Shown here piece after piece: positions 4,903-58,912 of a stretch of DNA of 64,000 nt. Location: positions 114,772,146 to 114,836,145 of the forward strand of contig CM065296.1 of the NCBI GenBank assembly GCA_032871835.1. The letters run 5' to 3'. A program made the position numbers and the translations under genes. The notes under the pieces are model-generated. The model saw only the letters and a list, made by a program, of their open reading frames with translations, did no database searches and had not been told where the DNA came from. Source of the stretch: Dipteronia dyeriana. Its lineage: Eukaryota; Streptophyta; Magnoliopsida; Sapindales; Sapindaceae. Within the stretch, counting starts at the first letter, position 1. Every line of letters starts with the position of its first letter.

Positions 4903-4915
4903 ACACCCCCAAACC
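4903..4915 (-). promoter_or_regulatory. Polypurine tract of the LARD-like element
   Basis: On the minus strand the sequence GGTTTGGGGGTGT directly abuts the 3' LTR. This is the normal place and composition for plus-strand priming in Ty3/gypsy-type elements. Confidence 0.75.
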
Positions 4916-7870: not shown

Positions 7871-7919
7871 ATTGAAAGGAAAGATACCTAGGTGGGTTGC
7901 CTCCCACCAAGAGCACTGT

Positions 7920-8582: not shown

Positions 8583-8660
8583 TGCTTGTTTGTCACATGG
8601 ATCACCAACTTGACCACTTTTCTCACCTTTATCCTAAAAAAGTGCTAGGATTTCATTTAA

Positions 8661-9482
8661 TTATTCAATTGGACTCCTAGAATAGTCTTCTGCCTGAAGT
8701 GTACCCACAACAAGGCAATCAACTGAGCTAGTGGCTTTTTTCAACCTTTTAGGAAATGAAACCGGTGGGATGTAGGGATCGGGTGACTTGTGTAGTAGGG
8801 ATATCTTCTCGGGCACATTCTCCACTACTACTTCCTCTTCTTCTACCAAAGTCTCACCCTCGATTTCCTCTTCTGATTATTTAGCCTTTTTCTCCTTAGG
8901 CTCTCCACTTGTATCTACGGTGTCTAACACTTGGTCATTCCTCATAACTGTCACTGCCTTAGCTTGTTCATTCCTGTGAATTGTGTAAGCTACCTGCCCT
9001 AACTGTGTCACCAACTTTTTCACCGATGCCTCTAAGTTGGTGAACCTTTTCTCTGTTGCTTGGAGGAAATTATTCAAGTTCTGATCTGTCTGTTGTGAAC
9101 TCTGAGCAAGGGTAGTCACAATGTTCTCCAAAGGACTCTTCCTAGGCTGATATGAAGTCACATCTCGATTACCCGAGTTCTTCCATTGCTGCCCACTTAA
9201 CCTTTGGCCTTAGTAGTTCTGAGCTTGGTTATTCAAAGTATCGTTTGGGTCGGATCAAGAGAAGTTGGGATGGTTGCGCCACTCCGAATTATAAGAGTTA
9301 GAATATGGATCATTTCTTACTCTTTGAAAATTTAGGGCTCGAACATCCTCCTTCTCATAAAAGACCATATCTCTACCTTGACGGTCCACTTTATACACCA
9401 TGTTTGCCCTTAAACACCAAAAACAAAAGTACCAACGAAGTAAAAAGAAACTAAAAAAAATGAAAATAAAACTAACAAACAA
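8661..9482 (-). pseudogene. Ty3/gypsy gag remnant (C-terminal half), broken
   Basis: Three minus-strand segments (9482-9255, 9161-8877, 8849-8661) read in order as the C-terminal part of a plant gypsy gag-like protein. They include an NDPYSNSYNSEWRNHPNFS stretch, a Gln/Leu-rich helical segment, an acidic linker and a DPYIPPVSFPKRLKK motif that usually precedes protease in Tat/Athila-type elements. In-frame stops and shifts separate the segments, and no protease or RT follows. The N-terminal gag domain is missing here, although the related fragment at 48929-49114 keeps part of it. Confidence 0.7.
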
Positions 9483-9552
9483 AATAAAATAAAATACAAT
9501 GACACACTACCTAAATCAAACTAATTAGGCTCAACTTATGAATATACTCCGA

Positions 9553-9570
9553 TCCCCGGCAACGGCGCCA
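9553..9570 (-). other. Primer-binding site of the LARD-like element
   Basis: The minus strand reads TGGCGCCGTTGCCGGGGA, four bases inside the 5' LTR. This is a common plant gypsy/LARD PBS, and it fixes the element orientation as minus. Confidence 0.88.
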
Positions 9571-9574
9571 AAAT

Positions 9575-10935
9575 TGATTGCAGTATTTTTTATCTTAATC
9601 AATTTAAAGAAAAGTTCGTTCACTGAGATCGGTGATTCTACTAGTTGAACACTAATTAATCTAATTAAATCATAATCCAAGTGCATAAAAAATAAATGGC
9701 ATAATGCTTGTCTTGGATTGCTACTCGAATTCATTAATAAGCAAAATCAAATAAACTAAATTACTCAAAAGCTCACACGAAAATATATGAATATGAAAGA
9801 ATGCTAGGGAATTAATGCAACCTAATTAAACTTCTCAACGTAATCCATAAGTCTCATTAAAGTACTTAATTCCAATTGATAGGGTTTGTTTCATGAAGCA
9901 CCTAATCTTTCCTATTACTCACACAAGGTCATGTAATGAGTAAGGGTTAGAATTAGTTTCTAATTAAAAACTCTTAACCAAATCACACATAGCATGGTCA
10001 TGCATATGGTAATTTTCTCAATTATTAAGCTTGTAGTTAAGGACTAAATGGAATGGTCACCCACATCTAACCCTTAACATCATAAATTAACTAATCCTAA
10101 CACAAACATTCATTGAGGTCTCATTTGAATATAGGTGAAGGAATTAGAGCAAATATTGCAATAAAAGAGACTACCAATGTAATTAATTAATAAACATAGA
10201 CCACAAGATTACAAAGAGTTGTTCAACCGGTTTACATTAATCCCCTAACATAGAAATTAGTTACACATCAAGGAAAAGAAATACAACAAAGAAGAGTTAA
10301 AAAAGAAACCCAGGTTGGTCATTTGAGGTTCCTTGAATTGTAAGCTTCCTCTTCTTGCCTTCCAAGTTCCAAGATGGATGGAGGAATGAAAGTGTCTAAG
10401 GATGGTGATGGAAAGATGGAAGTGTCCAAACTCTCGTGTGGATGATGATCTTTCACCAAAATATAAGATGGGTATTTATATGGGTCCAAAAATAGGTCAG
10501 AAATCAACCTAGAAACGCTTGCTGACAGACTGTCGCTTCCATGTATGTCGCGGTCTTCCATGACGATATGTCGCGGTCTTCCATGACGATATGTCGCGGT
10601 CTTCCATAACGACATGTCGCGGTCTTTCACGACGACATGTCACGGTCTTTCACGACGACATCACAAACGACACTTTAGAAAAGTTGTTGTAGCGTGGTGT
10701 GTCACGGTCTCCCATGACGAAAATCATGACAGCGACATATTGTGTCATTTTGTCCATTTTTTCAATTTTCAGCTCTTTTAGGTCTCAATCTTCACTCATA
10801 ACTCCCATATGATGCCCATATACAAAATCCTGCAAATAAACTTAATCGAACCATTAAACACTTGATTTTACTCGAGAATTGAGCAATAACCATAAGAATG
10901 AGGACTCGAAATCTAGTGTTATCATGGCTCGATCA
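9575..10935 (-). repeat. 5' LTR of the LARD-like element
   Basis: A 1361-bp LTR, TG...CA on both strands, next to the PBS. Minus-strand ORFs inside it (for example 10319-10630) are LTR sequence and also occur in the partner LTR, so they are not genes. Confidence 0.9.
10545..10659. repeat. Five-copy 23-bp tandem array in the LTR
   Basis: Units start at 10545, 10568, 10591, 10614 and 10637, with consensus ATGTCGCGGTCTTCCATGAC plus GAT or GAC. The partner LTR has about three copies. Single diverged copies are scattered through the interiors of both LARD-like elements (7250-7580, 55900-56220, 57220-57330). Confidence 0.88.
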
Positions 10936-10940
10936 ATTTG

Positions 10941-11478
10941 TGATCAAGATTTTTTTATAAAAAAAAAAAATTTGGTTGAGATCTGGATTTGAGAGCTGAA
11001 ATAGAGAGATAAAGATTAGGGTTTGGGGAAAGAGAAGATGAGAGACGAGAGAGCGGTGACCATTGCAGATGAATTATATGGGGATGAGATGATGGAGGCG
11101 GATGAGTGGTGGCTGATTATGTTGAAACCTAGGCAGCTGAGGCGCTGAGCACACATTTAAATATTTATTTTAACTTTTTTAATTAAAAAAATTATTGTTG
11201 ATTTTTTTAACATGGAATGACAAAAATGCTCTTCGAATTATGCATATGATGTCACGAGTAAGGAAAACCATGAAGAATAATGGTTCCGTCTCTATTTCAT
11301 CTATTATTGTCAATTTCCAACCGTCGGAGGGATTTATCTTTTAACAAAAAAACCAAAGACAATTTGCGATTTAACGTATATGACAATTTGCCAATTAGTC
11401 ATATATGTAATAACATTGTGAACAAAATTATTACATGTGTTGCTTTATCCAGGCGCCAATATTTGATACATAGTGATT
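10941..11478. repeat. Intergenic with a dispersed repeat copy
   Basis: No gene is seen. Bases about 11215-11480 are a diverged, opposite-orientation copy of the repeat unit at 1139-1360 and 1790-1990. They share TTCGAATTATGCATA-like and CATCTATTATTGTCAATTTCC-like stretches. Confidence 0.6.
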
Positions 11479-18887: not shown

Positions 18888-19598
18888 TAAGGACGGTCAT
18901 GCATCTGTTTTTCAGTCCGTTTTCGTTTTTATTTTTCAAAAACGATTTCGAAAACGCGTTCGTTAACCGTTTTTCATTCTATTTTCGAAAAACAAAAGAA
19001 AAATTAAAAACAAAATCATTGTTAAAAGTGAAAGATTTGAAAAATACAAAATACTTGTTTTTTTGTTTTTCACTTTTTTTATATAAAAAAATCATTTTTT
19101 TTTACTATTAGTACTGTTATACGTTTGATATGGCTAGGATAAGACGGGACAATATTTTAAATGACCAAAGTGCCCCTCTTATATATATTCCAGAATAATT
19201 TATTTCCAACTAGAATAAAAGGATACCATGTAGGCGACAGAGAGCTCCATGACCATCTCATAGATCGTTTTTCCCACAGACGGTCTTTCCTCAACGGCCT
19301 TAACAGGGAACTTACAAACAGAGATGGATGGAGATCTTAAGCCATAAACTAGTCAGTACGTGGCGTTGTTAAACCTGAGTTCATCCTAGTCAGCAACATT
19401 CTGGTTCAGGATGTGTCCAGGGTGTCCAGCCGATATACTAGACTAGAAAACAAAATCTGTTTTGATATGCAGGTTCCTCATACGAGGCAAGCATAGAGCA
19501 TATTGGGATCTTGAAGAATCATAGTTCTAGACATAGAACCGTCTAAAGATTAGGATGAGAGAAACTTTAGAAAGCCATAGGAAAATAAACACTCAAGC

Positions 19599-20013
19599 TT
19601 TATTCTGATTTTCTGATGATCTTATAGAGGGGCAAGAGCTTCCTTATATAGGGGAAGGAAGACTTCAGAGAACAAGAGGCAAGCCTATCTTACAAAGGAT
19701 AAGGCCAGAGATAGAGGCCGGCATATTACAATAATTATATTACAAAAGCCAACAAAGTTGGCCTGGCAGCTGGCAAACACACTAATAATTAAACAGATAA
19801 GGAAGACGAGAAAACTACGGGCTACTGAGATTACAGGTGGAGTAGTATTCGTCGTCAGAGTCAAGGGCCCCACAAATAGAACAGGGCCATGTGTCAGCTT
19901 GGTCTTGAGAATCCAAAAGGTAGGAATTCTGGAAGGGATGCCAGCTCTTTGCTGGGTCCCAAGGGACATCTGGGAGGATAAAAAGGACGTCTGTTTTGTC
20001 ATTGTTGACGTCA
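19599..20013 (-). promoter_or_regulatory. Pararetroviral promoter and poly(A) signal, left arm
   Basis: On the minus strand: a TGACGTCA element (20006-20013), a TATATAA box (19644-19650) in the context CCCCTATATAAGGAAG, and AATAAA (19599-19604). This order resembles the 35S-type promoters of Caulimoviridae, where TGACG (as-1-like) motifs lie upstream of a TATATAAGGAAG box. It points left, toward EF-hand gene 1 and antisense to it. Confidence 0.75.
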
Positions 20014-20060
20014 CAAAGGAAATTGAGGAGAGGGGTCTGGATACTGGTCCGATACAGTCA

Positions 20061-20591
20061 TTAGTAATCATACGAAGTATCCCACTCGTAGCTTAAATTG
20101 GAGGTCCAAATGAGGCGTGTGTGTGGGTTGTGACTGTAGGGCCTGCTAAAAACCCAAATGCAGCATACTTTGGAGGCCGGTTCTGGGTCCATTTTCCAAA
20201 TGTGGTACTGGCCCATTAGTTTGGTAAGTTCGGTACGCCAGACAGATAGAGGATTGAAGCACTGTAGGAAGGTCCGGAGGTTATGAGAGGTTGGGCTCTG
20301 AACAAAGCCATATAATGTTTGAAGGGGAAAAACTATGGCATGATGGTGGAGAACAGATAGGCACCATAGGAACCATAATACCTGGTCAGAATAATAGTAA
20401 AATGGGGGAGATATAAAAGGGTCTGGGAAAGGTTTGCTAGGGTTGGCTAACTGGTGATGGCAACCCTGATCGTTGATCTTGGTGAGATACCTTGGGAGGT
20501 ATAATTTTACGAAGTCATGGACCTGTTGAACAGAGGGAATATGGCCCGGTAGCCATAAATTCTGGCGGGAAAGTAGGAGGTGGTGGAACAA
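20061..20591 (-). pseudogene. C-terminal region of the pararetroviral polyprotein, left arm
   Basis: This 176-residue segment is open in the left arm. The equivalent in the right arm (34063-34560) stops at 34333-34335. It lies after RNase H, in a different frame from it, and has a Trp/Phe-rich block (LWFLWCL) of the kind found at the ends of petuvirus-like polyproteins. No catalytic motif is visible. It is not an independent gene. Confidence 0.6.
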
Positions 20592-21636
20592 CAGGCGGAG
20601 CTGTGGAGGATGAGGCCTGTGAGAATATCATGTAAATCAAGGGGATGGGACCAACACGGGAAATCAGGGTGATGGAGTGAGGCTTTGAAAGCATATCTGG
20701 GATGATGTTGTGGTGCCATTTTATGTGTTTGACAGAAAAGTCATATATGGAGAACCAATCCTTGAGTCTCAGGAGCTGAGGATTTGGAGAAAGCTTGTTG
20801 TGGAATTCAAGAACCTTCGGAAAGGATGAGTTATCCATTTCGATGATGAAGTTCTTGGTTCTTAGATGGAAATCAAACTTGGAGATTCCATTTTTTACAG
20901 TAAGGATCTCTTTATAAACGGTGTGATAGTGTTTCTGGGCGTCTTTGAACTGTCCACTGGCATGGCCACAGTAGTGGCGTTTTCCATTGGATTCTTCAAA
21001 GATGACGGCTCCCCAGAAGTGGTCACTGTATCAGTCTGTATGATGAGCTGTCCCGAAGAAGGGATATGCAGAGGGAGAGGTTTCTGAGAGACATTCTTTA
21101 GGTGAGCCACTGTCTCGGAGTGTGAGGTATCCCACTGAGGAGGATCCTTCTTGAGGAGTTTGGACAAGCTTGTAGTGTAATGGCTTGCTTATGGGATAAA
21201 GCCTATGATATAATTGACAATGCCAAGGAACTGTTGGACCTATTTTTGTAAGAGGTTCGAATCTGGAAAAACAAGAAGCTGTCTTGCCAGGTGAGGTCCG
21301 GGAACATAGGACTTATCTTTGATCTTCATGCCAAGGAACTCAATTTCAGTAACACCAATTGAGCTCTTCTTATCAGATAGCATGATTCCATGTTTGTCAA
21401 TGATCTGGTGAAACTGTTGTAAGAGTTTATCATGTGAATTCTTGTCGGGCAAAAATAGTAGGATGTCGTCGATGTATAGCAGGGCAGTATGGAGAATAGG
21501 ACGGAAAATCCTGGTGATGGCCTTTGGAAAAGTGAAGGGGCTGTTTTTAAACCAAAAGGTAGGACTGTCCATTGGTACTGTGCATTCGGAAGGCAGAAAG
21601 CCGTCTTGGGTCTGTCATCAGGATGGATACCGATTT
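20592..21636 (-). pseudogene. Reverse transcriptase/RNase H fragment, left arm
   Basis: Minus-strand segments 21572-21240, 21167-20895 and 20838-20515 cover the RT palm with the YIDD catalytic box (codons at 21465-21476), the RT connection region and RNase H. Stops separate them, and the N-terminal part of RT is missing because the arm ends at 21636. Confidence 0.88.
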
Positions 21637-21665
21637 GCTAGTCATCGTTGATTCCACCGAGCGCA

Positions 21666-21677
21666 TGGTATCAGAGC
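21666..21677 (+). other. Pararetroviral tRNA-Met primer-binding site
   Basis: TGGTATCAGAGC is the complement of the 3' end of plant initiator tRNA-Met. In Caulimoviridae it marks the conventional genome origin, just upstream of the leader. Here it lies 30 bp right of the inversion junction, so the plus-oriented viral part begins almost exactly at the genome origin. Confidence 0.92.
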
Positions 21678-21753
21678 CTTTTGTCATGTTTTTCAGGCAG
21701 GAAGAATCATAGAGATAGATGTAAACTAGATGAAGAGAGGGACTTTCAAAACA

Positions 21754-22952
21754 ATGGCAAACAACATATCTGATAACACTCCCGCTAGACTTTCTTCTGC
21801 TATTTCTATTCGTCAAACTCAAACAAACAAAATATAGAACCTTGTTGAATACACCCATATCCCAGAATTCGCACGGATCACTGAAACCGCTCTTCCCTTG
21901 TTGAACCCTTATACTCTGTTTAAACGCAGCAGATCACTCTCCAGAATAGTCACTGCCCTAGTTCAACACCGTTCTCCTCCGATAAAGGAATATATCCAAT
22001 CTATTGCTTTGGATAATTGCCTGATCCCAGCCTCCACAACCGAGCAATATGTTGACCTAGAAATTGGTCAACCCCTAATCGATCAATGGATCAAAAAAGG
22101 TTACTCTCCTCTGCACATCGGAGCCATAAGGATAATCCTTACTCTACATGGTAGGAAAGGATTACCAGTCACAGCCAGGATTGCCCTCCTCAACACCATC
22201 TACAAACAATACGAACATGCAATCATCTGAACGTGCCTATCAACTCTTCATGCAGAAAGCATTTTTCTTACCTACTATCCTAATTTTAACATCCCACTCA
22301 GGGACTTGAACCTTCACAACTGTCTCAAAATTCAACTTCAAATAGTAGGAGCTCCTATGATGCCAAATTCCTATATGGCAACACTGCACCACCAGATTGC
22401 TTACAGGCTTCAAGACCATGCTCTTGATCTTCCCATCCCTGGACATACTGGAGATACCATCTTCATAAAAGCTGAAAGAGAAGAAGAAGTCCCCACTATC
22501 ATCCAGATTCCTAAGCAACTGCCCAAAGAAAAGCTCACAGAAATCATGCCTCTCAAGTGGATCACTAACTATGAGAAGACCTTTCAAAACATCACTCATG
22601 TTCCACAGACACCAAGTTCACCAAGTTAGCCGATGGATCCATCCAGACTACTTATGAGCAAATTGGAACTTCTGTGACATAAGTAACCAGCACCCCTGCC
22701 ACAGAAACATCACCCAATGCTCCTCATGTGTTCCAGGTCCTCATGATCAGGCCTGTCACATCTGAAAAGAAAATTCTGATCCACCGCTTCGAACCCGATG
22801 GAACTCCTATTTATACAGACAAGATCAACGGCCATTTCATATGGCACGTTGACCCAGAATTGTGCTACTCTGACTGTCACCTTGTAAACCCATTCGCTCT
22901 CACCGAGACCCTAAGGATCCTCAGAGTCCTTGGATTGGTTTACAACAAATAA
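21754..22952 (+). pseudogene. Movement-protein region of the pararetroviral polyprotein, broken
   Basis: The first likely start is the ATG at 21754. A TAG interrupts the frame at 21835. Open pieces at 21898-22230, 22306-22629 and 22728-22952 show caulimovirid movement-protein character, including a HIGAIRIILTLHGRKGLP block in the first piece. Known function of the family: tubule-forming cell-to-cell movement through plasmodesmata. Several stops or shifts make this copy non-functional. Confidence 0.8.
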
Positions 22953-23071
22953 AAAGCAATCCTCACTCTATCTATGATAGAGCCCTTCAAATCTTAAAAG
23001 ATGAAGGATTACTTCTGGATGAGTCAACAGAGCAAATACTGCCTCCTACTCCGACTCTCATTCCTTGCTTC

Positions 23072-24394
23072 ATGGCCTCCAGCTATTATAAGAACTTACC
23101 ACCTTTCATCCAGTCTACTGAGGTCTTACCTGATGGATCTCTCAAGCAACCCTCTCAGGCTGAACAAGTCCTCAATTGGCACACTCGTAATGCCACTGTC
23201 CAGAATAGAGTTCTTCACTCTATCGACCAAAAGATTGACCAAGTTTCACATCATGTTTCCCAACATGACCACCAACTCCAACATCTCGATTCAACTCTGC
23301 GCAACATGTATATAGATTTACAGTCGAGGGTTTCCCGATTAGATGTTGATCTTTACCAGTACATCAACCAAGGATATTTTGGCCCTGAATTCGACAGTAA
23401 GGAAAGAGAAATCAGACAACTCAAGGACCAGTTAGACCAGATAACCCGAGACCACTTCACTAGCACACCTTATATCCCAAGACCTCATCCCTACTCTCCA
23501 TCCTTGATTTTCCCTACCCAGTCGCCACCTCCTCCTTCCAGGCCCCCTAATCATAGCCAGTTTTTCAAATCAACTGGAGATCTTTTTAGAAAATACCCAC
23601 CTCTATCCACTCATTCGGAACAACCATCCTCTAGCATGACGAAAAGAACATCTCCTCAAAAGAAGAAAGTACAATGCACTCACAAGCATTCACCACTAGA
23701 TCACCGAAAGCATGCCTTTATGCGGCTTCTCACCAGTTTTCCTCTTCAGGAACCTCTGACAATCCTACAGAACCCACGGAATCCTCTTATGATTCCCCCT
23801 CTTCGTGGGAAACGTATTCCCCAGATTCCTCAGATCAGGCTAATTACTCAGACCCAGATGCATTACCAGATCCCAGCCAAATCTACTTGGCTACCAGAAC
23901 TGACCCTCAACCATCCACTCAGACAGTTGACACATCTGAATCTTCAGATGAAACCTCTGAGGAACTAGCTCCTATGGTCGATGAACCGCCTGACCAAAGG
24001 CCCATGAAACAGGCACCTCCCCGACAATGGAGAAAAAGGATGTCAGAAATAAGTGCCTGGCTCGACCTGCAGACAGCAAAACGAGATAACAACACAGAGT
24101 CCATCTTAAGAGAATTTGTCTCCAGGTTCACTGGATCTCTCAGAGATTGGTACCAAGCCTTTGGAGAATACAGACAACTTCAATTGGTTCGATGTGAATC
24201 TGTCTCTCTAGCAATGGAAATAGTCTTTCGAGAATTCCTCGGAGATGCCTCCAAATTCTACAAACAAACCAGACAAGAGTTCTTCGAAATGCGAGTCTGC
24301 TCATTAGACAAAAGAGACATAGATTACCACTACAGGCGCATGTCTTTCAGATACCATGCGCTCGGTGGAATCAACGATGAAACCTTGAGGCAGG
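23072..24394 (+). pseudogene. Coiled-coil and coat-protein region, interrupted by an LTR element
   Basis: The segment 23072-23968 has a Gln/His/Asp-rich helical stretch (codons about 23150-23450) with heptad-like spacing, then a Pro/Ser-rich linker. The overlapping frame 23674-24394 continues with an acidic Ser/Thr/Asp-rich linker and a coat-protein (gag-like) core containing a SLRDWY segment. The frame is cut at 24394 by the LTR retrotransposon, and viral sequence resumes at 31514 after a duplicated GCAGG. The family role is capsid formation and RNA packaging. Confidence 0.82.
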
Positions 24395-26684
24395 TGATGG
24401 GGACACGTCGTTGCAGTGTCATCAAATATGAACATTTAAGTTCGGCCTTGCAAGGGCGCAAGTCATAGAGACTAGCACAACGGCAAGCAAGGGATCGATC
24501 CACAGGGAGGTGGGATTCACCGATCGTCTCTAATTCTAGCTATTATTACAACATTTCAAGCGGACTCGTGTATTACGTGTGCGAGAAAAGTGAATAATAA
24601 TATAACTAAATAACTTATATAAATGATATATACAATGATAGATGGAATGGAGATATACATGAAATGTGGCTACACTAGGGAAATAACTCAACCGTGACAA
24701 TCCTCCTAATTACGTTCTAGACTCACCTAATCCTCAAATGTGCAAGTATACATAGGCTCGTATCCCATTAATTAATCTCTAATCTCTCTCGATGTCTTAG
24801 AGATAGTATCCATATATACCCGAAATCTCTCTCGAGCAATCCGGACAATATATATGAACCCATTAAGCATGTGGAATACAAATCGAACCCTATACGCTAG
24901 CCTAATGGTTCTAGCACTTTCTAGTCAAGCATAGTGAATGTTTATCTAAGCATTGTCAAATGCGTCTCCTCTCGGTACATAGCATCTAACCATGGATCAA
25001 TTACAAAGTGATCATAAGCAAAGGTTTTAAGCACTCAAAACATCCATATAACAACACAAACACAAGAAAAATGTCGGTGGTCTTTACTTCTATGTCAAAG
25101 ATTCGGTTTAGTCAACTCCCTAGGATGGCTAAACATGGGAAACAAGTTTACCTAATAACTATATGCAACAATGTGATTGTTATAACATTAAGAACATTCA
25201 ATTTAGGTTAAAGGTTCATCCTCTTGATTAGGGAATTTTCCCACAATCAATTCATCACCCAATCCTGTCACGTGGATGGAGAATCGTGTCTTAATACAAA
25301 GACCCATTAAGAACAAGGATATGAACCAAGGTCAATTTAGCAACTAAAAGCCCGAACTGAAACCTTTTCTACTCTTTGGGACTAAAATTCATATTACTCA
25401 AATTACTCAATACATGGAATTTCAAGTCATCCATCAATCAATCAACAATCATGGGTATCTAATTTCTACTCTAAATTACAACTACTCCTAAACCCAATCA
25501 TGGACACATATTGATTTCTAACAATTCATACACATACATATCATATTAAGAGCATAAAAACACATATATCAAAGAGAAAAACAAAACTCAAATGAATTTA
25601 AGAACAATCAATACATTTATTACACAAGTTTAGGTTTACAATATCCTCAAATTGGTGGAATACATCAAAGAATACAAGAAATACAAAGAAATGAGTAAAT
25701 ATGAGCAAACCCTTGAAGAAAAGTCCTCCAAAGATGCTCCTAGCCTTCCTAGCTCGGTTTTGGCTCCTAATTCCTTTGTAATATACTCTAAGATGGATGG
25801 AGGAAGTGTATAGTGGTGAGGTGGAGGTATATGGTGAGCTCCCATGGAGGAAAAACCTCCATGGGAGCAAGAGGTGAAAGAAAAAGGAAGAAGAAAAGAA
25901 GAGGTGTGAGAAGGGGAAAAGAGGGGAAGAGAGGTGAAGAGATCCCCAAGAATGAGGAGAAAATGGGGTATTTATAGTGTAGGAGGTTAGGGAAAGAGTT
26001 TTGGGTGAAAAGACAAGAACACCCCTATGAAAATGGCTGAAAAACGCAGTGCTGCCCAGAAGTGTGGTTCGATGTACGGTTCGCTTTGACGTCGCGTACT
26101 GCACATCAGTTTAATTTTGGTTGTTGGAATCTTACGTAGTACGTGATGCGGTTCGCGCTTCCTTCTGGTGCGGTTCGCGTACCGCACTTGAAGCCTTGTA
26201 TAATTTCCTCTGCCATCTTGCACGGTACGAAGTGCGGTTCACTTCGATGCCGCATACCGCACTGATTCTACTGCTCTCTTAAGCGGTACAAGACGCGGTA
26301 CGCAACTTGGTCTCGCGCGGTTGCGTACCGCACTGCTCTGCACAATATTACAAAATCTGTCATAACTTTCTTTATAAACCTCGGAATCATGATATGTTAA
26401 ATACGTTGGAAAGAAGACCCCTGGGGATTTCCGAAAAGTTTTTATGGGTGATGTAGTTCGATCGGAGGAGAGAGATATGACCTTCTAAGTTGGGATGTCT
26501 GCACAAGCTATTCCAAATTCTACCCTTTTACCTCCAAAACTCTTCAATTAAGCTCAAATACCTTCCATAGGGAACATGTACCTACACAAGGCTCACAAAC
26601 ACATCAAATACCAAAATATACTCAGAAATAAGAACAAAAGGTAGAAAATGGGAACTTCAAAATGTATATAAATCGATCCGATCA
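24395..26684 (-). repeat. 3' LTR of the nested LTR retrotransposon
   Basis: It starts TGATGGGGACACG and ends CCGATCCGATCA-type sequence (TG...CA). Bases about 26060-26340 are a GC-richer patch with repeated inverted words GTGCGGTTCGCG and CGTACCGCAC. ORFs such as 25598-26104 (-) recur in the other LTR and have Ser/Phe-rich low-complexity translations, so they are not genes. Confidence 0.93.
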
Positions 26685-29194
26685 ATACCCCCAAACCTAT
26701 CTTTTGCTCGTCCTCGAGCAAAAACTCAAATGAAAAACATTCAAACAAATTGAACATAATTAAAAACTAAGCTAGGCTAGTCCACTTTCGTAGGAAACAC
26801 AATGACACTTAGCACGTGCCATAAGCCTTTCAACCACTTGGCGATTCCTAGATGGAGAAGTTTTATCTTCTGAGGGTTTATAGATACGAACACCCACAAA
26901 CGTATTACTCTGTAAGAAAGCTGAGATGCAATCCAAACATACCACATAAAAACAATACACGCATGATAGTATCTCAAATATACCAATCAATGACAATGCT
27001 TCACATAATGCAAGTATGTCAATACTTAGGATGTTTTTGGTTTACAAATTAACAACGCTCGAATGCTCAAGATAAAATTCGCCTCAAATCTAATCCTCAC
27101 CAGATTTCAGTCTGATTTTTTCACTCAGAACCTAGGCGATCACTCTCTAGCAAACACATGCGATTTGGAAGTTATGTTCATGGAATCTAATATATCGCAT
27201 ATGAGTATATTCAATGAAGCACATTTTATAGTGATAGATCTCATGGAAAGAATTGAAATGTCATGAACGTGGAAAGAGCATGCATTGAGTCATATTCCCA
27301 ATATAGACTTTCGAAGAGATCAAATGGACTTTCCCTTACTTGTATTGGGGCCAGGTGATTTGTGGTGGTGTATGGGATGGAAGATATGGTAAAAGTGGGA
27401 ATGATAAAGCTACTAATCATGCTAAAGTGTTTATACATATTATAATACTTTAGTTAGCTCTAAAACACATTACATCACAAGTGACTAGGCAGTAAACTTT
27501 ACATTGCATATTTGTGCTACACTTGTACTCATTGGTGAGTAACTTTTTATTTGAATAACTTGAAGGCTTAAGTGTTTATAATTCAAACTTATTTTCTCTT
27601 CTTTTTTTCTTTCTTTCTTTCTTTCTTTCTTTCTTTTAGCCCTTGCCTTTGCACATTTACACATAATTGCCTAAGTACACATTTATAAAATTTAGAATAA
27701 ATATAACTTCTCTAAAGCTATACACCTTAACATGATCAATAACTAGGGTATGACTTGTGTTTGAGTGATGTTGGTGCATGGAGGTTTAGTGTTTGGGCTC
27801 AATTTTTGTAATGAAAACACACATAGGGACATGGGAGTGTTTGGGTTATATTTGTGGATTTTAAGAAAACACTCAAGTCCTAAATCATTTCTAAAAGTCC
27901 ATCTAACGAGGGAATACAAATCTCAACAAGCAATCCACATGATAAAGTTCTATGGCAATCAATGCAAATTTGAAGTACAATGCGATCACAGTTAAGAACA
28001 AATCGGAAAGTGTTTAAAGAGTAGAAACAAAACCCATAAATTTCGCTTTTTAGGCTTAAGTGTAGCTTACGCGTAGTCTCCACTATTTTCCTAAGCTAAA
28101 CAAGCAAAGAGTTCTATCTACCTCAACATCAAAAGATTGGCACTGTACAAGCAAATTTAAGTGATCCATGGAGCTAAAAGCATACTATGCATATCTCTAC
28201 CGGCACACAAAAGAAAGCAACTCAACATGGAGGTCAAAAATTTCAAAAACTGTCGAAATTCAAGTTCATCCAATGTCCACTCTTTGGTCTATATCTTTAA
28301 AAAAACTTAATATCATTTGACAAAATTTTAACACCATCAAGTACACATATAAATACACACTTTTCATTTAAAAAATATTTCAAAATTAGAATTGGAAAAG
28401 TGTCAAAATGGACGATGAAAACAGTGTATGTGCAATTTCGAAAAACAGGGCATCGCCCTTGACCTTTGATCGAAGAAATGATCATAACTTTTAAACCGCC
28501 ACCCAGAATTTTATGTTCTTTATATATTCAGAATCGTGACGAAAAATCGAAGAACACAACATGGGCAGAAAAATTAATTTCTTCACCAATTAGTACAGTT
28601 TTAAAGAAACATTTTCCTCAAGAATATTCAAAAAAGGGCACTTTTTCAGAGATTCGAAAATTTTCTAAAACAAACACCTTAAGATCTAAGCACAACACAA
28701 ATCCACTCTTAGATCTAAACATAAATGAAAATAAAAGAAAATAAACATAGCATTCCTAACATTAAACGCATGGGCAGTTCCCGCCCAAGTCGACAACTAC
28801 TCTACAAGCACTCAAATTAAAGTTCAAAATTTAGAGGGAGCCTCTTGTGGCTGCAGCTACATGGCCTTTGTGGCATTGCCGTTTCACGTGGAGAGTTGTT
28901 GCGGTACGATAGACGCACACCTAGCTCTCAAGAGTCATGCGGTCTTTCCTGATAGTTTCTATTCCTTGCACAAGCAAAACTCAAAAAGCAATCAAATGCA
29001 TATGCTATAAATAAAATAACAAAACACAACTAACAACTCCATAACCTAGCCTAAACATTGTCGTGCACACAATGAAAGACATGAGTAAAAGAGATGCTTA
29101 TTTTTAACATAACATCTAATCCGTAAAGCAATAAAATCAATAAAAATCAATAAAATGGAAGCTAAAACTATCAACAATCACTGAATGTGCTACC
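26685..29194 (-). other. Non-coding interior of the nested LTR retrotransposon
   Basis: The polypurine tract (minus strand GGTTTGGGGGTAT) is at 26685-26697. A TTTC microsatellite lies at about 27608-27640. No gag or pol motif is found in any frame; short ORFs are unrelated to each other. Confidence 0.75.
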
Positions 29195-29212
29195 TCCCCG
29201 GCAGCGGCGCCA
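29195..29212 (-). other. Primer-binding site of the nested LTR retrotransposon
   Basis: The minus strand reads TGGCGCCGCTGCCGGGGA, three bases inside the 5' LTR. It is nearly the same as the PBS at 9553-9570. Confidence 0.88.
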
Positions 29213-29215
29213 ATT

Positions 29216-31508
29216 TGATGGGGACACGTCGATGCAGTGTCATCAAATATGAACATTTAAGTTTGGCCTCGCAAGGGTGCAAGTCACAGAGACTAGCACA
29301 GTGGCAAGCAAGGGATCGATCCATAGGGAGGTGGGATTCACCGATCGTCTCTAATTCTAGCTATTATTACAACACTCCAAGCGGACTCGTGTGTTGCGTG
29401 TGTGAGAAAAGTGAATAATAATATAACTAAATAACTTATATAAATGATATATACAATGATAGATGGAATGGAGATATACATGAAATGTGGTTACACTAGG
29501 GAAATAACTCAACCATGACAATCCTCCTAATTATGTTCTAGACTCACCTAATCCTCAAATGTGCAAGTATACATAGGCTCGTATCCCATTAATTAATCTC
29601 TAATCTCTCTCGATGTCTTAGAGATAGTATCCATATATACCCAAAATCTCTCTCGAGCAATCCGGACAATATATATGAACCCATTAAGCATGTGGAATAC
29701 AAATCGAACCCTATACGCTAGCCTAATGGTTCTAGCACTTTCTAGTCAAGCATAGTGAATGTTTATCTAAGCATTGTCAAATGCGTCTCCTCTCGGTACA
29801 TAGCATCTAACCATGGATCAATTACAAAGTGATCAATTAAGCAAAGGTTTTAAGCACTCAAAACACCCATATAACAACACAAACACAAGAAAAATGTCGG
29901 TGGTCTTTACTTCTATGTCAAAGATTCGGTTTAGTCAACTCCCTAGGATGGCTAAACATGGGAAACAAGTTTACCTAATAACTATATGCAACAATGTGAT
30001 TGTTATAACATTAAGAACATTCAATTTAGGTTAAAGGTTCATCCTCTTGATTAGGGAATTTTCCCATAATCAATTCATCACCCAATCCTGTCACGTGGAT
30101 GGAGAATCGTGTCTTAATACAAAGACCCATTAAGAACAAGGATATGAACCAAGGTCAATTTAGCAACTAAAAGCCGGAACTGAAACCTTTTCTACTCTTT
30201 GGGACTAAAATTCATATTACTCAAATTACTCAATACATGGAATTTCAAGTCATCCATCAATCAATCAACAATCATGGGTATCTAATTTCTACTCTAAATT
30301 ACAACTACTCCTAAACCCAATCATGGACACATATTGATTTCTAACAATTCATACACATACATATCATATTAAGAGCATAAAAACACATATATCAAAGAGA
30401 AAAACAAAACTCAAATGAATTTAAGAACAATCAATACATTTATTACACAAGTTTAGGTTTACAATATCCCCAAATTGGTGGAATACATCAAAGAATACAA
30501 GAAATACAAAGAAATGAGTAAATATGAGCAAACCCTTGAAGAAAAGTCCTCCAAAGATGCTCCTAGCCTTCCTAGCTCGGTTTTGGCTCCTAATTCCTTT
30601 GTAATATACTCTAAGATGGATGGAGGAAGTGTATAGTGGTGAGGTGGAGGTATATGGTGAGCTCCCATGGAGGAAAAACCTCCATGGGAGCAAGAGGTGA
30701 AAGAAAAAGGAAGAAGAAAAGAAGAGGTGTGAGAAGGGGAAAAGAGGGGAAGAGAGGTGAAGAGATCCCCTAGAATGAGGAGAAAATGGGTTATTTATAG
30801 TGTAGGAGGTTAGGGAAAGAGTTTTGGGTGAAAAGACAAGAACACCCCTATGAAAATGGCTGAAAAACGTAGTGCTGCCCAGAAGTACGGTTCGATGTAC
30901 GGTTCGCTTTGACGTCGCGTACTGCACATCAGTTTAATTTTGGTTGTTGGAATCTTACGCAGTACGTGATGCGGTTCGCGCTTCCTTCTGGTGCGGTTCG
31001 CGTACCGCACTTGAAGCCTTGTATAATTTCCTCTGCCATCTTGCACGGTACGAAGTGCGGTTCACTTCGATGCCGCATACCGCACTGATTCTACTGCTCT
31101 CTTAAGCGGTACAAGACGCGGTACGCAACTTGGTCTCGCGCGGTTGCGTACCGCACTGCTCTGCACACTATTACAAAATCTGTCATAACTTTCTTTATAA
31201 ACCTCGGAATCATGATATGTTAAATACGTTGGAAAGAAGACCCCTGGGGATTTCCGAAAAGTTTTTATGGGTGATGTAGTTCGATCGGAGGAGAGAGATA
31301 TGACCTTCCTAAGTTGGGATGTCTGCACAAGCTATTCCAAATTCTACCCTTTTACCTCTAAAACTCTTCAATTAAGCTTAAATACCTTCCGTAGGGAACA
31401 TGTGCCTACACAAGGCTCACAAACATATGAAATACCAAAATATACTCGAAAACAAGAACATAAGGTAGAAAATGGGGACTTCAAAAGGTATATAAATTGA
31501 TCCGATCA
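29216..31508 (-). repeat. 5' LTR of the nested LTR retrotransposon
   Basis: Nearly identical to 24395-26684, including the CGGTACG/CGTACCG-rich patch (about 30890-31160). Differences seen include CGATGCAG against CGTTGCAG near the start and a few single-base changes. Confidence 0.93.
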
Positions 31509-31513
31509 GCAGG

Positions 31514-32058
31514 TGTACCTGAACTCTCTTCCTACAGAGCTTCAGGGGGAACTCCAAAGATTGATTGAATTCTCAGGCAAAAGCCTACGAGACATTACTC
31601 TAAGAGAAATCCACATATACACCTACACTGCATTAGTCAAACTCTGTGTTACCCAAAGAGTTTTTGCAAAGATGATCAGAGAAGGTAGAAAATATGATAG
31701 GCACTACAAATTTCCTCCCACCTATCATCTCAAATGCATCTCCACTGAACACTGCAACTGCAGAGCAAATAGGTCCTACAGAAGACAACCTACCAGAAAC
31801 CAACCCCGAAAGGAAAAGAATTCCTTAACCCCCAGGAGGAATAGGAAATACAAATATTACAGGAAGAAAACCAGGAGATCATGGAACAAGTCCAACAAGT
31901 GCTTTGCCTGAGGACAAGAGGGTCACTATGCCAAGCAATGCCCTAATAAAAGAGCAAAATCTGCTAAGCTCATTCAGCAGCTTAGACATGTTGCTGATGA
32001 AATACCCTCAGATGCAGATATTGAGTCTTTCTTCTCAGCACAAGAAGATGTTAACCAG
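31514..32058 (+). pseudogene. Coat protein C-terminus and zinc knuckle, broken
   Basis: Viral sequence resumes directly after the duplicated GCAGG. A helical coat-protein segment is followed by a strongly basic Arg/Lys region (about 31770-31890) and a retroviral-type zinc knuckle at 31900-31941. A TGA at 31909-31911 falls inside the knuckle. The frame is open again after it into the protease region. The basic region plus knuckle is typical of nucleic-acid binding by pararetroviral coat proteins. Confidence 0.85.
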
Positions 32059-32595
32059 TTGACCACTTTTATGGTCCAAGATTCAGACGACTCCAGCACT
32101 TCCTCAGAACATACAGGATATGCAGATCCCGATTCCCCCTCAGAAGTTTACCAGGCCACCACTAATGGTAGTACTAGCCCACAAGTCAAGATTCAGATTC
32201 TAACAACAAAATACTCCAAGCCAGTCCCTGTCATTGCCTATTTCGATACTGGAACACATTCCTCGATGATGAATCCCAACGGCTTTCCTTCAGATGCCTG
32301 GAAAGAAGAAAAAAATGAGTTTATAGCAGCTGATGGACAAATCTTCAATACTTACCTGATCTCTAAGCACAAAGTTGGCATACAATTTTTCCCTTCATTC
32401 ACTCTGTGGACCCATGTATTTGGAACCCCCCTTCCAGACAAGGATATCCTTATCGGATGGGACATCTATAGCCAATCCAGAACCATCAGGATCCTCCCTA
32501 ACGGGATCCAATACAATAAGGAGTTTAAACCTTTCATCGACATCCCTAAGATTTTCCCCCTTTCCGTTATCAATCCAAATTTCCAGCAAATTTAA
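32059..32595 (+). pseudogene. Pararetroviral aspartic protease region
   Basis: An acidic linker is followed by a retropepsin-like domain with the catalytic triad DTG (codons 32245-32253) in the context AYFDTGTHSS, and a downstream ILIGWD block that matches the usual second conserved region. The frame ends with TAA at 32593-32595 before RT. The family function is polyprotein processing. Confidence 0.85.
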
Positions 32596-33815
32596 GAGAA
32601 GCTCCTACAGTTCTGATCCAACAGCCATGCAGACTTCAAACATCCTCACCCACTGTGGAAAAACCCTGAGTTTTTCATTAGACTCCCTTTCAAACTCAAT
32701 GAAGATATCAACCCAACGAAAGCTACTCACTCGGGAATGTCCCCCTCAAACCTATCCCTAGCCACTGACGAATGTGAAGATCTCCTCAGACAAGGCCTGA
32801 TAGAGGCAACCTCCTCTCCGTGGGCCTGCCAAGCCTTCTACATAGAAAAGAGGTCTGAACAACTCAGAGGAAAGAAAAAGCTCGTAATTGAATACAAGCC
32901 TCTCAATCTCTTCCTCCTAGATGACAAGTTCCTAACTTCCAGAGCCAATACGTTGTTCTCCCAACTTCCTAGAGCCACTATTTTCTCCAAGTTTGACTTG
33001 AAAAGAGCCTTCTGGAAAATCGGTATCCATCCTGATGACAAACCCAAGACGGCTTCTGCCTCCCGAATGTACAGTACCAATGGACAGTCCTACCTTTTGG
33101 TTTAAAAACAGGCCCTTCACTTTTCCAGAAGGCCATCACCAGGATTTTCCATCCTATTCTCCATACTGCCCTGCTATACATCGATGACATCCTACTATTT
33201 TTGCCCGACAAGAATTCACATGATAAACTCCTACAACAGTTTCACCAGATCATTGACAAACATGGAATCATGTTATCTGATAAGAAGAGCTCAATTGGTG
33301 TTACTGAAATTGAGTTCCTTGGCATGAAAATCAAAGATGGGTCCTATGTTCCCGGACCTCACCTGGCAAGACAGCTTCTTGTTTTTCCAGATTCGAACCT
33401 CTCACAAAAACAGGTCCAATAGTTCCTTGGCATTGTCAATTATATCAGAGACTTTATCCCACAAGCAAGCCATTACACTACAAGCTTGTCCAAACTCCTC
33501 AAGAAGGATCCCCCTCAGTGGGATACCTCCCACTCCGAGGCAGTGGCTTACCTAAAGAATGTCTCTCAGAAACCTCTCTCTCTGCATATCCCTTCTTCGG
33601 GACAGCTCATTCTACAGACTGATGCCAATGACCACTTCTGGGGAGCCGTCCTCTTTGAAGAATCCAATGGAAAATGCCACTACTGTGGCCATGCCAGTGG
33701 ACAGTTCAAAGACGCCTAGAAACACTATCACACCGTTTATAAAGAGATCCTTACTGTAAAAAATGGAATCTCCAAGTTTGATTTCTATCTAAGGACCAAG
33801 AACTTCATCATCGAA
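32596..33815 (+). pseudogene. Pararetroviral reverse transcriptase and RNase H, broken
   Basis: The segment 32737-33105 holds RT fingers/palm, with KKLVIEYKPLN and FSKFDLKRAFWKI blocks. The frame shifts near 33105; the next frame has the YIDD catalytic box (codons 33177-33188) and the thumb/connection region with FLGMKIKD. An FLGIVNYIRDFIP block follows at about 33423-33461, just after a TAG at 33420. The segment 33486-33719 has RNase H with its QTDA motif, ending at a TAG at 33717-33719. The known role is copying the pregenomic RNA. This copy cannot encode one continuous enzyme. Confidence 0.9.
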
Positions 33816-34560
33816 ATGGATAACTCATCATTTTCGAAGGTTCTTGAATTCCACAACAAGCTTCCTCCAAATCCTCAGCTCCTGAGACTCAAGGATTGGT
33901 TCTCCATATATGACTTTTCCGTCAAACACATAAAGGGGCACCATAACATCATCCCAGATATGCTTTCAAAGCCTCACTCCATCACCCTGATTTCCCGTGT
34001 TGGTCCCATCCCCTTGATTTACATGATATCCTCACAGGCCTCATCCTCCACAGCTCCGCCTGTTGTTCCACCACCTCCTACTTTCCCGCCTGAATTTATG
34101 GCTACCGGGCCATATTCCCTCTGTTCAACAGGTCCATGACTTCGTAAAATTATACCTCCCAAGGTATCTCACCAAGATCAACGATCAGGGTTGCCATCAC
34201 CAGTTAGCCAACCCTAGCAAACCTTTCCCAGACCCTTTTATATCTCCCCCATTTTACTATTATTCTGACCAGGTATTATGGTTCCTATGGTGCCTATCTG
34301 TTCTCCACCATCATGCCATAGTTTTTCCCCTTTAAACATTATATGGCTTTGTTCAGAGCCCAACCTCTCATAACCTCCGGACCTTCCTACAGTGCTTCAA
34401 TCCTCTATCTGTCTGGCGTACCGAACTTACCAAACTAATGGGCCAGTACCACCTTTGGAAAATGGACCCAGAACCGGCCTCCAAAGTATGCTGCATTTGG
34501 GTTTTTAGCAGGCCCTACAGTCACAACCCACACACACGCCTCCTTTGGACCTCCAATTTA
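33816..34560 (+). pseudogene. End of RNase H and C-terminal polyprotein region, right arm
   Basis: The frame 33816-34139 ends in a Pro/Ser-rich tail. An overlapping frame (34063-34335) carries the Trp/Phe-rich C-terminal block and stops at 34333-34335, where the left arm is still open. Confidence 0.65.
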
Positions 34561-34642
34561 AGCTACGAGTGGGATACTTCGTATGATTACGAATGACTGT
34601 ATCGGACCAGTATCTAGACCCCTCTCCTCAATTTCCTTTGTG

Positions 34643-35055
34643 ACGTCAACAATGACAAAACAGACGTCCTTTTTATCCTCCCAGATGTCCCTTGGGACCC
34701 AGCAAAGAGCTGGTATCCCTTCCAGAATTCCTACCTTTTGGATTCTCAAGACCAAGCTGACACGTGGCCCTGTTCTATTTGTGGGGCCCTTGACTCTGAC
34801 GACGAATACCACTCCACCTGTAATCTCAGCAGCCCGTAGTTTTCTCGTCTTCCTTATCTGTTTAATTATTAGTGCGTTTGCCAGCTGCCAGGCCAACTTT
34901 GTTGGCTTTTGTAAAATAATTATTGTAATATGCCGGCCTCTATCTCTGGCCTTATCCTTTGTAAGATAGGCTTGCCTCTTGTTCTCTGAAGTCTTCCTTC
35001 CCCTATATAAGGAAGCTTTTGCCCCTCTGTAAGATCATCAGAAAATCAGAATAAA
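34643..35055 (+). promoter_or_regulatory. Pararetroviral promoter and poly(A) signal, right arm
   Basis: TGACGTCA (34643-34650), TATATAA (35004-35010, in CCCCTATATAAGGAAG) and AATAAA (35050-35055) lie in this order on the + strand. Transcription would run right, out of the viral insertion. The AATAAA is only about 40 bp after the TATA box, which fits the family habit of bypassing the first poly(A) site and using it on the second pass in a circular genome. Confidence 0.75.
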
Positions 35056-35415
35056 GCTTGAGTGTTTATATTCATATGGCTTTCTAAAGTTTCTCTCATC
35101 CTAATCTTCAGACGGTTCTATGTCTGGAACTATGATTCTTCAAGATCCCAGTATGCTCTATGTTTGCCTCGTATGAGGACCCTGTATATCAGAACAGATT
35201 TTGTTTTCTAGTCTAGTATATCGGCTGGACACATCCTAAACCAGAATGTTGCTGGCTAGGATGAACTCAGGTTTAACAACGCCACATACTGACTAGTTTA
35301 TGGCTTAAGATCTCCATCCATCTCTGTTTGTAAGTTCCCTGTTAAGGCTGTTGAGGAAAGGCCGTCTGTGGGAAAAACAATCTATAAGATGGTCATGGAG
35401 CTCTCTGCCGCCTAC

Positions 35416-35830
35416 AATATACATAAAATATATTTTATATATATTACTATATATAAATATTATATAAAATATTATATATTATAATATTTACATAATTAGT
35501 ATATATATATATAATAATAAAACATTATATTATATATAATATGTAATAATATATATAATATTATATATAATATATATTATTTATATAAAATTATATATAT
35601 ATATATATATATATATGATATATCAAATATTATATATTATGTATTATAAAAATATAATATAATATAATATAAAAATATTATAATATTTAATATATAAAAT
35701 AATACATATAATATTATAATATATTATTATAATATAAATTATAATATATGTAATAATATTTAATATATACAGTTATATTTTTTATTATATAATAATATAT
35801 ATATTATAATAATTATTTATTCATAATTTA
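35416..35830. repeat. AT-dinucleotide-rich interior of the Harbinger-like element
   Basis: Almost pure A/T with ATAT and TAATAT words. The uninterrupted copy has the same kind of tract at about 37880-38340. Confidence 0.8.
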
Positions 35831-36190
35831 AGAGTTTAGTTTTGATTAATTCATTTTTTGATATGTTTTTTTGAATTAATTTTTGATGTGTTACTTTTGT
35901 TTAATTTAAAAATTACAATACAAAAATTATATTGGTTAATTATTTAATCAATTTGTTTGTAGTTGTAATAATATTAAACAAAATATCAAAATTGACATTT
36001 CAATTTTTGATAGTTTTCAGTTAACCTACCAGACGAGTTTTTTTCATTTTCATTTTCAAAATACAGCTTTCAGTATATGCTATCAGACGCATTTTTAGAA
36101 TTCAAAACAGAAACCAAAAATGTTGTTTTCATTTTCATTTTTTTTAAAAAAAAAACATCAACTCAAAAACGCTTACAGGACGGGCCCTAA

Positions 36191-36346
36191 TATTTTTTGG
36201 TTTTTGAGACCTAAAAGTGGATTTTTTTGAGCTGAAGCTAAATCAACTCATATAGCTTCTACTTCACAAAATCAAACCTTGGAATCCCTGGACACCTCAA
36301 GCACATCATCCAAAGGTTATGCTACCATTTAGCATTTCCAATTAAA
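36191..36346. other. Spacer between Harbinger-like and CACTA-like elements
   Basis: Nothing recognised. Confidence 0.5.
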
Positions 36347-37494: not shown

Positions 37495-37811
37495 GGGTCC
37501 CGTCCTGCAGCTGTTTTTCAGTCCGTTTTCTTTTTTATTTTTCCAAAACGATTTCGAAAACGCATTCGTTAACCGTTTTTCATTTTATTTTCGAAAAACA
37601 AAAAAAAAATGAAAAACAAAACCAGTGTTAAAAGTGAAAGATTTGAAATACACAAATTACTAGTTTTTTGTTTTTGTTTTTGTTTTTCATTTTGTTTTTC
37701 ACTTTTTTTATATAAAAAAATCAATTTTTTTAAACTATTAATTATACTGTTATATGTTTGATATGGTTAGGACAAGACAAGATAATATTTTCAAATGACC
37801 AAAATGCCCCT

Positions 37812-37848
<37 letters not shown>

Positions 37849-37888
37849 CAGAATAATTTATTTCCAACTAGAACTAAAAGCATTCATG

Positions 37889-37936
<48 letters not shown>

Positions 37937-38693
37937 TACAATATTTACATAATTAAAATATTAATATTCTATAATATTATTATATATTAGTATATATAAT
38001 AATAAAATATTATATATTATATATGTAATAATATATATAATATTATAATATATCTATATATATATATATATATATTTATATTTATAATGTTAATATATAC
38101 AATAATATATATAATATATCAAATATTATATATTTATATAGGATATAATGTAATATATTATGTATTATTATATATAGAAATATAATATAATTAATATTAT
38201 ATACAATTATAATATAAATTATAATATATGTAACACTATTTAATATTTTTTTTATATTATTATAATACGTATATATATATATATATTAATATAATATATA
38301 AAGTTATATTTTTATTATAATATATATATATATATAATTATTTATTTATAATTGAAGAGTTTAGTTTTGATTAATTCATTTTTTGAATTATTTTTTGATG
38401 TGTTATTTTTATTTAATTTAAAAATTACAATACAAAAATTGTATTGGTTAATTATTTAATCAATTTGTTTATGTAATAATATTAAACAAAATGCCAAAAT
38501 TGATATTTTAATTTTTGATAGTTTTCGGTTAACCTACCAGACGCGTTTTTTCCGTTTTTATTTTAAAAATAGAACTTTCAGTACATGCTACCTGAAACGT
38601 TTTCAGAATTTGAAACTGAAACCAAAAATATTGTTTTCATTTTCATTTTTATTTTCAAAAAACAACAACTGAAAAACACTCACAGGACAGTCC
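37495..38693. mobile_element. Harbinger/Tourist-like element, uninterrupted copy (1199 bp)
   Basis: TIRs GGGTCCCGTCCTGCAGC and (read inward) GGGACTGTCCTGTGAG, with the 3-bp duplication CTA (37492-37494 and 38694-38696). Removing the element restores a GTTGTTAAAAAG-CTA-GTATTTAGCAAC sequence like its CACTA subterminal neighbours, which supports the boundaries. This is the reference copy for 18891-36187. Confidence 0.88.
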
Positions 38694-39134
38694 CTAGTAT
38701 TTAGCAACGCACATCTTCGCATGTTGTTAAAAAGTTTGTATTTAGCAACACAAGTCTTCAAATGTTGTTAAAACTTTAGGATTTAACAACACATATTTTT
38801 GCATGTTGTTAAAAGTCATGTATTCTGCAACATGTTATTATTGTATGTTTAGTAGACATATATTTAGTAACATACATTTTTGTACGTTGGCGTAGGGATA
38901 TCATTAACATTATAAGTTTTTATATGTTGTTGTAGATATATCTTTGGCAACATTTATTTTTTTTATATGTTGTCGAAGAGTAACAATTAGCAACATACAT
39001 TTTTTGTATGTTGTGGTAGAGATAACATTAGCAACATACATTTGTATGTTGTCAAAAGTCTATATTTTTAAAAGTAACACTAATATTTCTTTAACAGTAT
39101 TTTATCCATATTAACAAAGGTCTATTGCATATTA

Positions 39135-53156: not shown

Positions 53157-53190
53157 AGGTGGTGGTGGTGGTGGTGGTGGTGGTGGTGGT
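53157..53190. repeat. (GGT)n microsatellite
   Basis: About 11 GGT units. In the relative at about 6860 this is a single short GAGGTGGTTGTGGT. Confidence 0.9.
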
Positions 53191-53199
53191 TGCCATAAG

Positions 53200-58700: not shown

Positions 58701-58912
58701 CCGACGGGTGAAGCATCCACCCGTGAACCCGTATTGTTTCGTGGGTTCGTGGGTGAGGGTATGGGTGCAGCCATAACCCGTGGGTTCAAACCCGCCCGTG
58801 AACCTATTTACCTACACTGGTTCAAGGGCGGACGAACGTGGGTGAGGAAAATTTTTACAGGTGGGGGTTGGGTTTACAAAACCCACCCGAACCCGACCCA
58901 CTTTCATCCCTA
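58701..58912. mobile_element. Truncated hAT element, relative of 53388-53987
   Basis: It contains GTGGGTTCGTGGGTGAGGGT-like blocks and ends with the complement of TAGGGATGAAAGTGGGTCGG. The left end is lost at the LTR boundary at 58700. Confidence 0.7.

Follow-up and report, generated by a model that had tools for sequence, protein, structure and literature searches.

Known systems and the present locus

Endogenous pararetroviruses in inverted arrangement have been described in other plants. At the eCPRVE locus A04 of upland cotton, two caulimovirid copies lie head to head within about 15 kb, with Met-tRNA primer binding site (PBS) motifs on both sides and arms that are 98.98% identical, the virus being, according to its authors, a putative new genus (PMC10458927). 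The subject here is a stretch of 64,000 nucleotides of Dipteronia dyeriana (Sapindaceae) DNA (assembly GCA_032871835.1, contig CM065296.1, positions 114,772,146 to 114,836,145; “the window”, whose own numbering is used throughout), in which two copies of a pararetrovirus likewise lie in opposite orientation with both outer ends at the PBS. The cotton case differs from the Dipteronia set in that, so far as the sections describing it go, its copies are full-size, there is one such locus, and no mechanism for the dimer is offered (PMC10458927).

Two further groups of plant elements are relevant. Florendoviruses have been reported in TA repeats, together with empty sites, and insertion as filler DNA has been proposed; as described in the main text of that report, which does not contain the words “inverted”, “head-to” or “tail-to”, they resemble the present element, in which the protease is a weak candidate, in having a movement protein, a protease, a reverse transcriptase (RT) and an RNase H, a genome start at tRNA-Met and TA-repeat flanks (PMC4241990). 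The tomato genome, as cited in a 2023 review, contains endogenous caulimovirids that are also in inverted-repeat conformation and feed 22-nt small interfering RNAs; in its section 3.1 the same review terms the entry of caulimovirids into plant genomes speculative (PMC10377300). In hepatitis B virus (HBV), double-stranded linear DNA integrates, so that there too, as proposed below for the present virus, a linear product of reverse transcription is what enters the genome, although HBV is an animal virus with a different mode of priming and, in the text concerned, no inverted dimer (PMC5408681).

The inverted arms and their shared outer end

In a self-BLAST of the window, 19229-21636 and 35416-33017 give a single inverted match of 2410 columns at 96.6% identity, confirming the inverted arms claimed in an earlier annotation of this DNA (here the first-pass annotation). 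A separate alignment counts 70 substitutions over 2398 aligned columns, a Kimura two-parameter (K2P) distance of 0.030, while the repeat search breaks the same match into four inverted pairs (I1-I4) and a short one (I9). That annotation was also right in giving both arms one and the same outermost viral base (sense ..CGCCTACA), here called P, and in where it put the inner switch (21637-21641, with the PBS TGGTATCAGAGC starting at 21666). On the strength of the arm match, the left viral copy (19229-21641, minus strand) runs from P back to the middle of RT, and numerous other genomic copies match it as far as 21641. An assembly artefact is an unlikely source of the arrangement, because the arms differ by 3%, a long terminal repeat (LTR) retrotransposon is present in one copy only, and the architecture recurs elsewhere with other junctions.

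What P represents becomes clear from its relation to the tRNA-Met PBS, which in the right (sense) copy is read at 21666-21677 on the plus strand. At L026 a sense copy reaches the equivalent of 35416, and the next base is the equivalent of 21666, the first of the PBS; the same head-to-tail junction is found at L015, L038 and L039. As these junctions are gapless, the viral circle passes from P straight into the PBS. Pararetrovirus minus-strand DNA starts at just this position, next to the tRNA primer site, and it follows that the shared end is that start and not a random break. The outer ends are therefore the 5' start of minus-strand DNA, and the defined linear end suggested in the first-pass annotation is in fact the minus-strand start at the tRNA-Met site. 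The left outer end extends a further 7 bases into the PBS (19228 down to 19222, minus strand; sense TGGTATC), either as a copy of the primer 3' end or as microhomology, while the right outer end extends 0.

Random ends in other copies of the family would have spoken against a defined end, but when these were checked their P-side ends were found to cluster. Among 16 such ends, from this locus and nine loci picked by RT, 15 are no more than 50 nt from P, 11 of them falling between -5 and +8, and one stops 353 nt before P; positions were taken by eye or from the edges of BLAST matches. Set aside in this count were the inner P of L015, the head-to-tail P of L026 and an inverted piece of L026 that ends at 35403. 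In a set of 20 further P ends (where L043 repeats the locus of L027), 12 end at P or up to about 8-12 bases inside the PBS, 4 fall short of P by 10-30 nt and 2 continue head to tail; one covers 13 bases of the PBS before switching to antisense virus, and another covers 7 before switching to coat sequence.

Some copies show other features at this end. Judged by eye, L060, L061, L062, L064, L069, L078 and L090 begin tens of bases upstream of the PBS beside apparently non-viral DNA, as if they carried a short terminal redundancy of linear DNA. L063 and L067, from two different chromosomes, both begin at the PBS and are preceded by similar DNA with an inverted PBS-like word, perhaps one repeat hit twice or a duplicated locus. 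L027 and L043 (C8:6.56 and 6.86 Mb, 0.3 Mb apart) have, by eye, identical viral ends and flanks and are probably one insertion duplicated later.

Recurrence of head-to-head pairs

The genome was searched for further copies, with each search scoring approximately the best 40 of 559, 396, 696 and 732 candidates respectively, and pairs were called from the coordinates of these best-scoring matches where neighbours lay within 20 kb; the totals are consequently lower bounds and are biased toward copies resembling the queries. All 6 neighbour pairs among the best 40 RT matches are head to head. The best 40 P-end matches give 7 head-to-head pairs, 1 tandem and 1 converging, and 41 PBS matches give 1 head-to-head and 3 tandem. 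When merged, these make 76 clusters, 11 of them with both orientations, comprising 9 head-to-head pairs whose P ends face outward and 2 irregular converging loci (C7:14.4 and C6:1.65); a P-end query of a second lineage adds the pairs C9:9.18 and C2:4.43. There are thus at least 11 head-to-head pairs, i.e. at least 10 besides this locus (the first-pass annotation had suggested looking for other copies ending at P); irregular converging loci number at least 2 and tandem pairs at least 4. The excess of head-to-head over converging loci (11 vs 2) gives P=0.011 in a sign test. Stretches of 10 kb were taken for 5 other RT-picked pairs and for 5 of the single loci.

No two of the 11 pairs share an inner junction. 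Expressed as window coordinates of the homologous base, left copy/right copy, the inner ends are 33012 with a 31-nt hop/21666 at this locus; 21673/21889 at C2:5.52; 22927/23359 at C8:3.69; 23774/21774 at C4:33.8; 32095/35303, passing through P into the PBS, at C1:26.08; about 23779/about 23064 at C3:105.9; 21676/about 7 nt before the PBS at C6:116.53; 22988/35099, passing through P, at C8:57.01; 22565/31762 at C8:13.99; 21689/31788 at C9:9.18; and 31929/24276 at C2:4.43. The differing junctions rule out the multiplication of one ancestral dimer; such dimers formed many times, with different centres. Of their 22 outer ends 21 were seen, and by eye 17 of these fall in the interval from -5 to +8 around P; the missing one is the right outer end of C8:57.01, where L095 contains no viral match. 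At C8:13.99 (L032, L033) both outer ends carry an identical altered end, TAGTA. Recombination with a copia element, considered for C6:1.6475 (L042), was ruled out, as the DNA behind the PBS there is antisense virus.

At this locus the inner junction can be followed base by base. Positions 21642-21672 (minus strand) are a perfect reverse complement of coat sequence at 24350-24380 (31 of 31 identical) and overlap the PBS by TGGTATC, through which they bridge to it, so that a non-viral filler between arm and PBS is ruled out. Read along the minus strand, the right copy terminates ..GATACCA at the PBS, these letters lead into 31 nt of sense coat, and there follow RT up to P and then 7 bases of primer-site sequence. 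The junction is templated. Five other inner centres that were blasted have overlaps of 0-7 nt, while C6:116.53 (L029) is a near-palindrome that turns at the PBS and whose centre measures no more than about 20-30 nt.

In a tree of the 2.4-kb region the two arms of a pair are sisters in all 6 pairs tested (bootstrap 91 to 100), these pairs falling in two lineages about 12-16% apart, and at a seventh, C8:13.99, the arms agree with this by distance (4.6% as against at least 7.2%). These 7 are the informative pairs; C6:116.53, with 300 bp only, decides nothing. Sister arms imply copies from one molecule or from one clonal infection.

Host flanks and insertion site

The left host flank (18896-19221, plus strand) and the right (35417-36195, plus strand) both match a virus-free sequence within the window, at 37502-38702 (plus strand): 18896-19224 directly matches 37502-37883 and 35430-36195 directly matches 37974-38702, the joined flanks aligning at 86% (919 of 1073 aligned columns). 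Because the matches are in order and in direct orientation, the flanks are the left and right halves of one TA-rich repeat, of which 37502-38702 is a paralogous empty site. No clear target duplication at the viral insertion is seen in the alignment of flanks and empty site. The 200 bases nearest the virus are 97% A+T on the right and 76% on the left.

A comparison with the flanks of ten other loci (11 loci and 21 flanks of about 2 kb in all, setting aside C6:116.53, C8:57.01, C8:13.99, C9:9.18 and C2:4.43) finds many common pieces at 69-95% identity, mostly shorter than 0.9 kb, the longest being 1871 columns at 75%; these may be read as members of the same TA-rich repeat family. The repeat, about 1.2 kb long as judged from 37502-38702 and the flanks of other loci, appears to be a favoured landing site of the virus in this genome.

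Origin of the head-to-head pairs

For this locus the explanation that we favour, with slightly better than even confidence, is that a self-primed minus strand folded back and was captured at a break; an inverted dimer arising in replication or repair, as the first-pass annotation had envisaged, is upheld. A nascent or finished minus strand would fold back onto itself, and in the present case the 3'-terminal ..GATACCA, a copy of PBS sequence, would pair with TGGTATC on the coat-gene minus strand over a 7-8-nt match. Reverse transcriptase would extend the folded 3' end as the second strand, making one jump, from 31 nt of coat to RT, and running off at the minus-strand 5' end after copying part of the tRNA primer. 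Once double-stranded, the hairpin would be end-joined into a break, mostly in TA-rich DNA and here in the TA-rich repeat, and the integrated dimer would have decayed and later received the LTR retrotransposon. Fold-back on so short a match, followed by extension, one jump and run-off, would yield exactly the order of segments observed, and run-off at the minus-strand 5' end would explain why the outer end is common despite the differing centres. If full-length minus strands took part, as expected under fold-back, inner ends at or through the PBS would result: in 5 of the 22 the distance to the PBS start is 25 nt or less, and another 2 copies pass through it. PBS bases are one-sided at the outer ends of the present locus (7 and 0) and likewise at C3:105.9 (6 and 1). 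That self-primed, folded-back minus-strand DNA is a regular integration substrate of this pararetrovirus, reverse transcription itself yielding linear inverted dimers that carry P at either end and are taken up at TA-rich breaks, is a broader proposition, and one that we regard as evenly balanced.

Several points count against fold-back. The model gives no route by which the hairpin would be made fully double-stranded. Five of the 11 pairs (C8:3.69, C4:33.8, C3:105.9, C8:13.99 and C2:4.43) have no inner end within 25 nt of the PBS or through it; 4 of the 21 outer ends are short of P (C2:5.52 left, C8:3.69 right, C6:116.53 left, C2:4.43 left); and the one-sided PBS bases that would be expected are not seen at C4:33.8 (6 and 5) or C9:9.18 (about 0 and 2). 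The ends of C8:13.99 share 37 TA-rich bases past the viral end, which run-off cannot yield. In a 1.2-kb protease/RT piece the arms of C8:3.69 are 6.5% apart but only 5.7% from another locus, and over the 200 bases nearest the virus the flanks of C2:5.52 are only 66% and 73% A+T.

Most of these observations could also be accounted for if two linear DNAs of one infection had been captured through their P ends at a TA-rich break, their inner ends being joined by microhomology, a possibility that we take seriously while thinking it rather improbable. TGGTAT can pair with TATATA, and after P the sequence often carries on through 5-8 PBS bases before turning TA-rich; overlaps at the six inner junctions compared by BLAST measure 0 to 8 nt; and a clonal infection would likewise give sister arms. 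However, none of the 7 informative pairs combines arms of different lineages, and P ends would nearly always have to be outside, yet single copies also join the host by other ends. It is much less probable that one copy integrated alone and afterwards underwent inverted duplication on the chromosome, by fold-back or break-induced copying. The 37 bases shared past the viral end at C8:13.99 speak for this, and the longer flanks there have one weak further match only (83 columns, 73%); at the present locus, though, the flanks are different halves of an empty site, so that no host DNA was duplicated, and nothing in chromosomal copying would make most pairs end at P. Finally, tail-to-tail pairs might be formed equally often but be lost as unstable spacerless palindromes, in which case the head-to-head bias would be one of survival. 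Perfect palindromes are indeed generally unstable, but the head-to-head near-palindrome at C6:116.53, with its very short centre, persists; this is the least credible of the explanations considered.

Other features of the locus

The first-pass annotation took the whole of 19230-35415 to be a pararetrovirus, and this holds for the arms and the remainder but not for 24395-31508, which is an LTR retrotransposon splitting the coat gene. Its LTRs (24395-26684 and 29216-31508; 2.29 kb) are 98.1% identical, with TG..CA termini and a 5-bp target duplication, GCAGG. As K2P between them is 0.018, as against 0.030 between the arms, the element arrived after viral integration. No Pfam domain was found in the 4 internal pieces scanned, and the insert may be non-autonomous. 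A viral tandem with a 4.8 kb period, considered for repeat families D3-D5, was rejected, these repeats being the LTRs of the insert.

The 5' half of the sense copy (21666-24394, plus strand) has a movement protein domain in the piece 22231-22629 (PF01107, 24.2 bits, E=2.9e-5, over the cut-off of 23). Beyond the insert, 31509-33016 (plus strand) carries the remaining coat sequence, a zinc knuckle (PF00098, E=0.0065), a protease (PF00077, E=0.007) and the N-terminal part of RT (PF00078, on a piece), all three matches being weak and under the curated cut-off. The right arm (33017-35416, plus strand), delimited by self-BLAST, comprises RT and RNase H (PF17919, E=1.7e-8, and PF17917, E=2e-5, both over cut-off), the region behind RNase H and the intergenic region, terminating at P. 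No integrase match was found among the 10 viral pieces scanned with Pfam (pieces only); the integration of HBV linear DNA proceeds without a viral integrase. With a tRNA-Met PBS at its genome start, directly adjoining P, and with TA-repeat flanks, which are common though not universal in Florendovirus-like elements, the element fits a florendovirus-like endogenous pararetrovirus (Caulimoviridae), so named from its domains, PBS and size of about 6.8 kb only. Its reading frames are fragmented into short pieces, and for that reason it probably has no current function as a virus.

The differences between the arms are clumped (dispersion P=0.0004), being few at right-arm positions 1000-2000 and many in the last 400 nt, which may be due to partial gene conversion or to uneven mutation. 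Several older repeats are nested on either side of the provirus, at 2799-11378 and 49602-58912; they reach about 2 kb in length, are 77-92% identical and occur in both orientations.

Consensus matches identify TATA-box-like sites at 35004-35015 (plus strand) in the right arm and at 19639-19650 (minus strand) in the left, both facing outward to host DNA. A viral promoter so placed would not transcribe both arms, and the read-through hairpin RNA proposed in the first-pass annotation is therefore unsupported in the form given, since it would need read-through from the host. The tomato loci are transcribed according to the review that cites them (PMC10377300), whereas at the Dipteronia locus the TATA-like boxes face away from the repeat.

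Significance

A literature search, thin on subscription papers, found no recurrent head-to-head class and no fold-back origin among the papers listed. Turner and Covey are said to have reported in 1988 hairpin DNAs in plants infected with cauliflower mosaic virus, and these would equal the intermediate proposed here. The inverted repeats could become a source of small RNAs were host transcription to run across them. With many P-ended copies and many separately formed pairs in one genome, the form of viral DNA that integrates becomes testable by counting; if the proposal is true, a regular fold-back substrate has left that genome with a whole class of head-to-head proviruses, drawn from two or more viral lineages.

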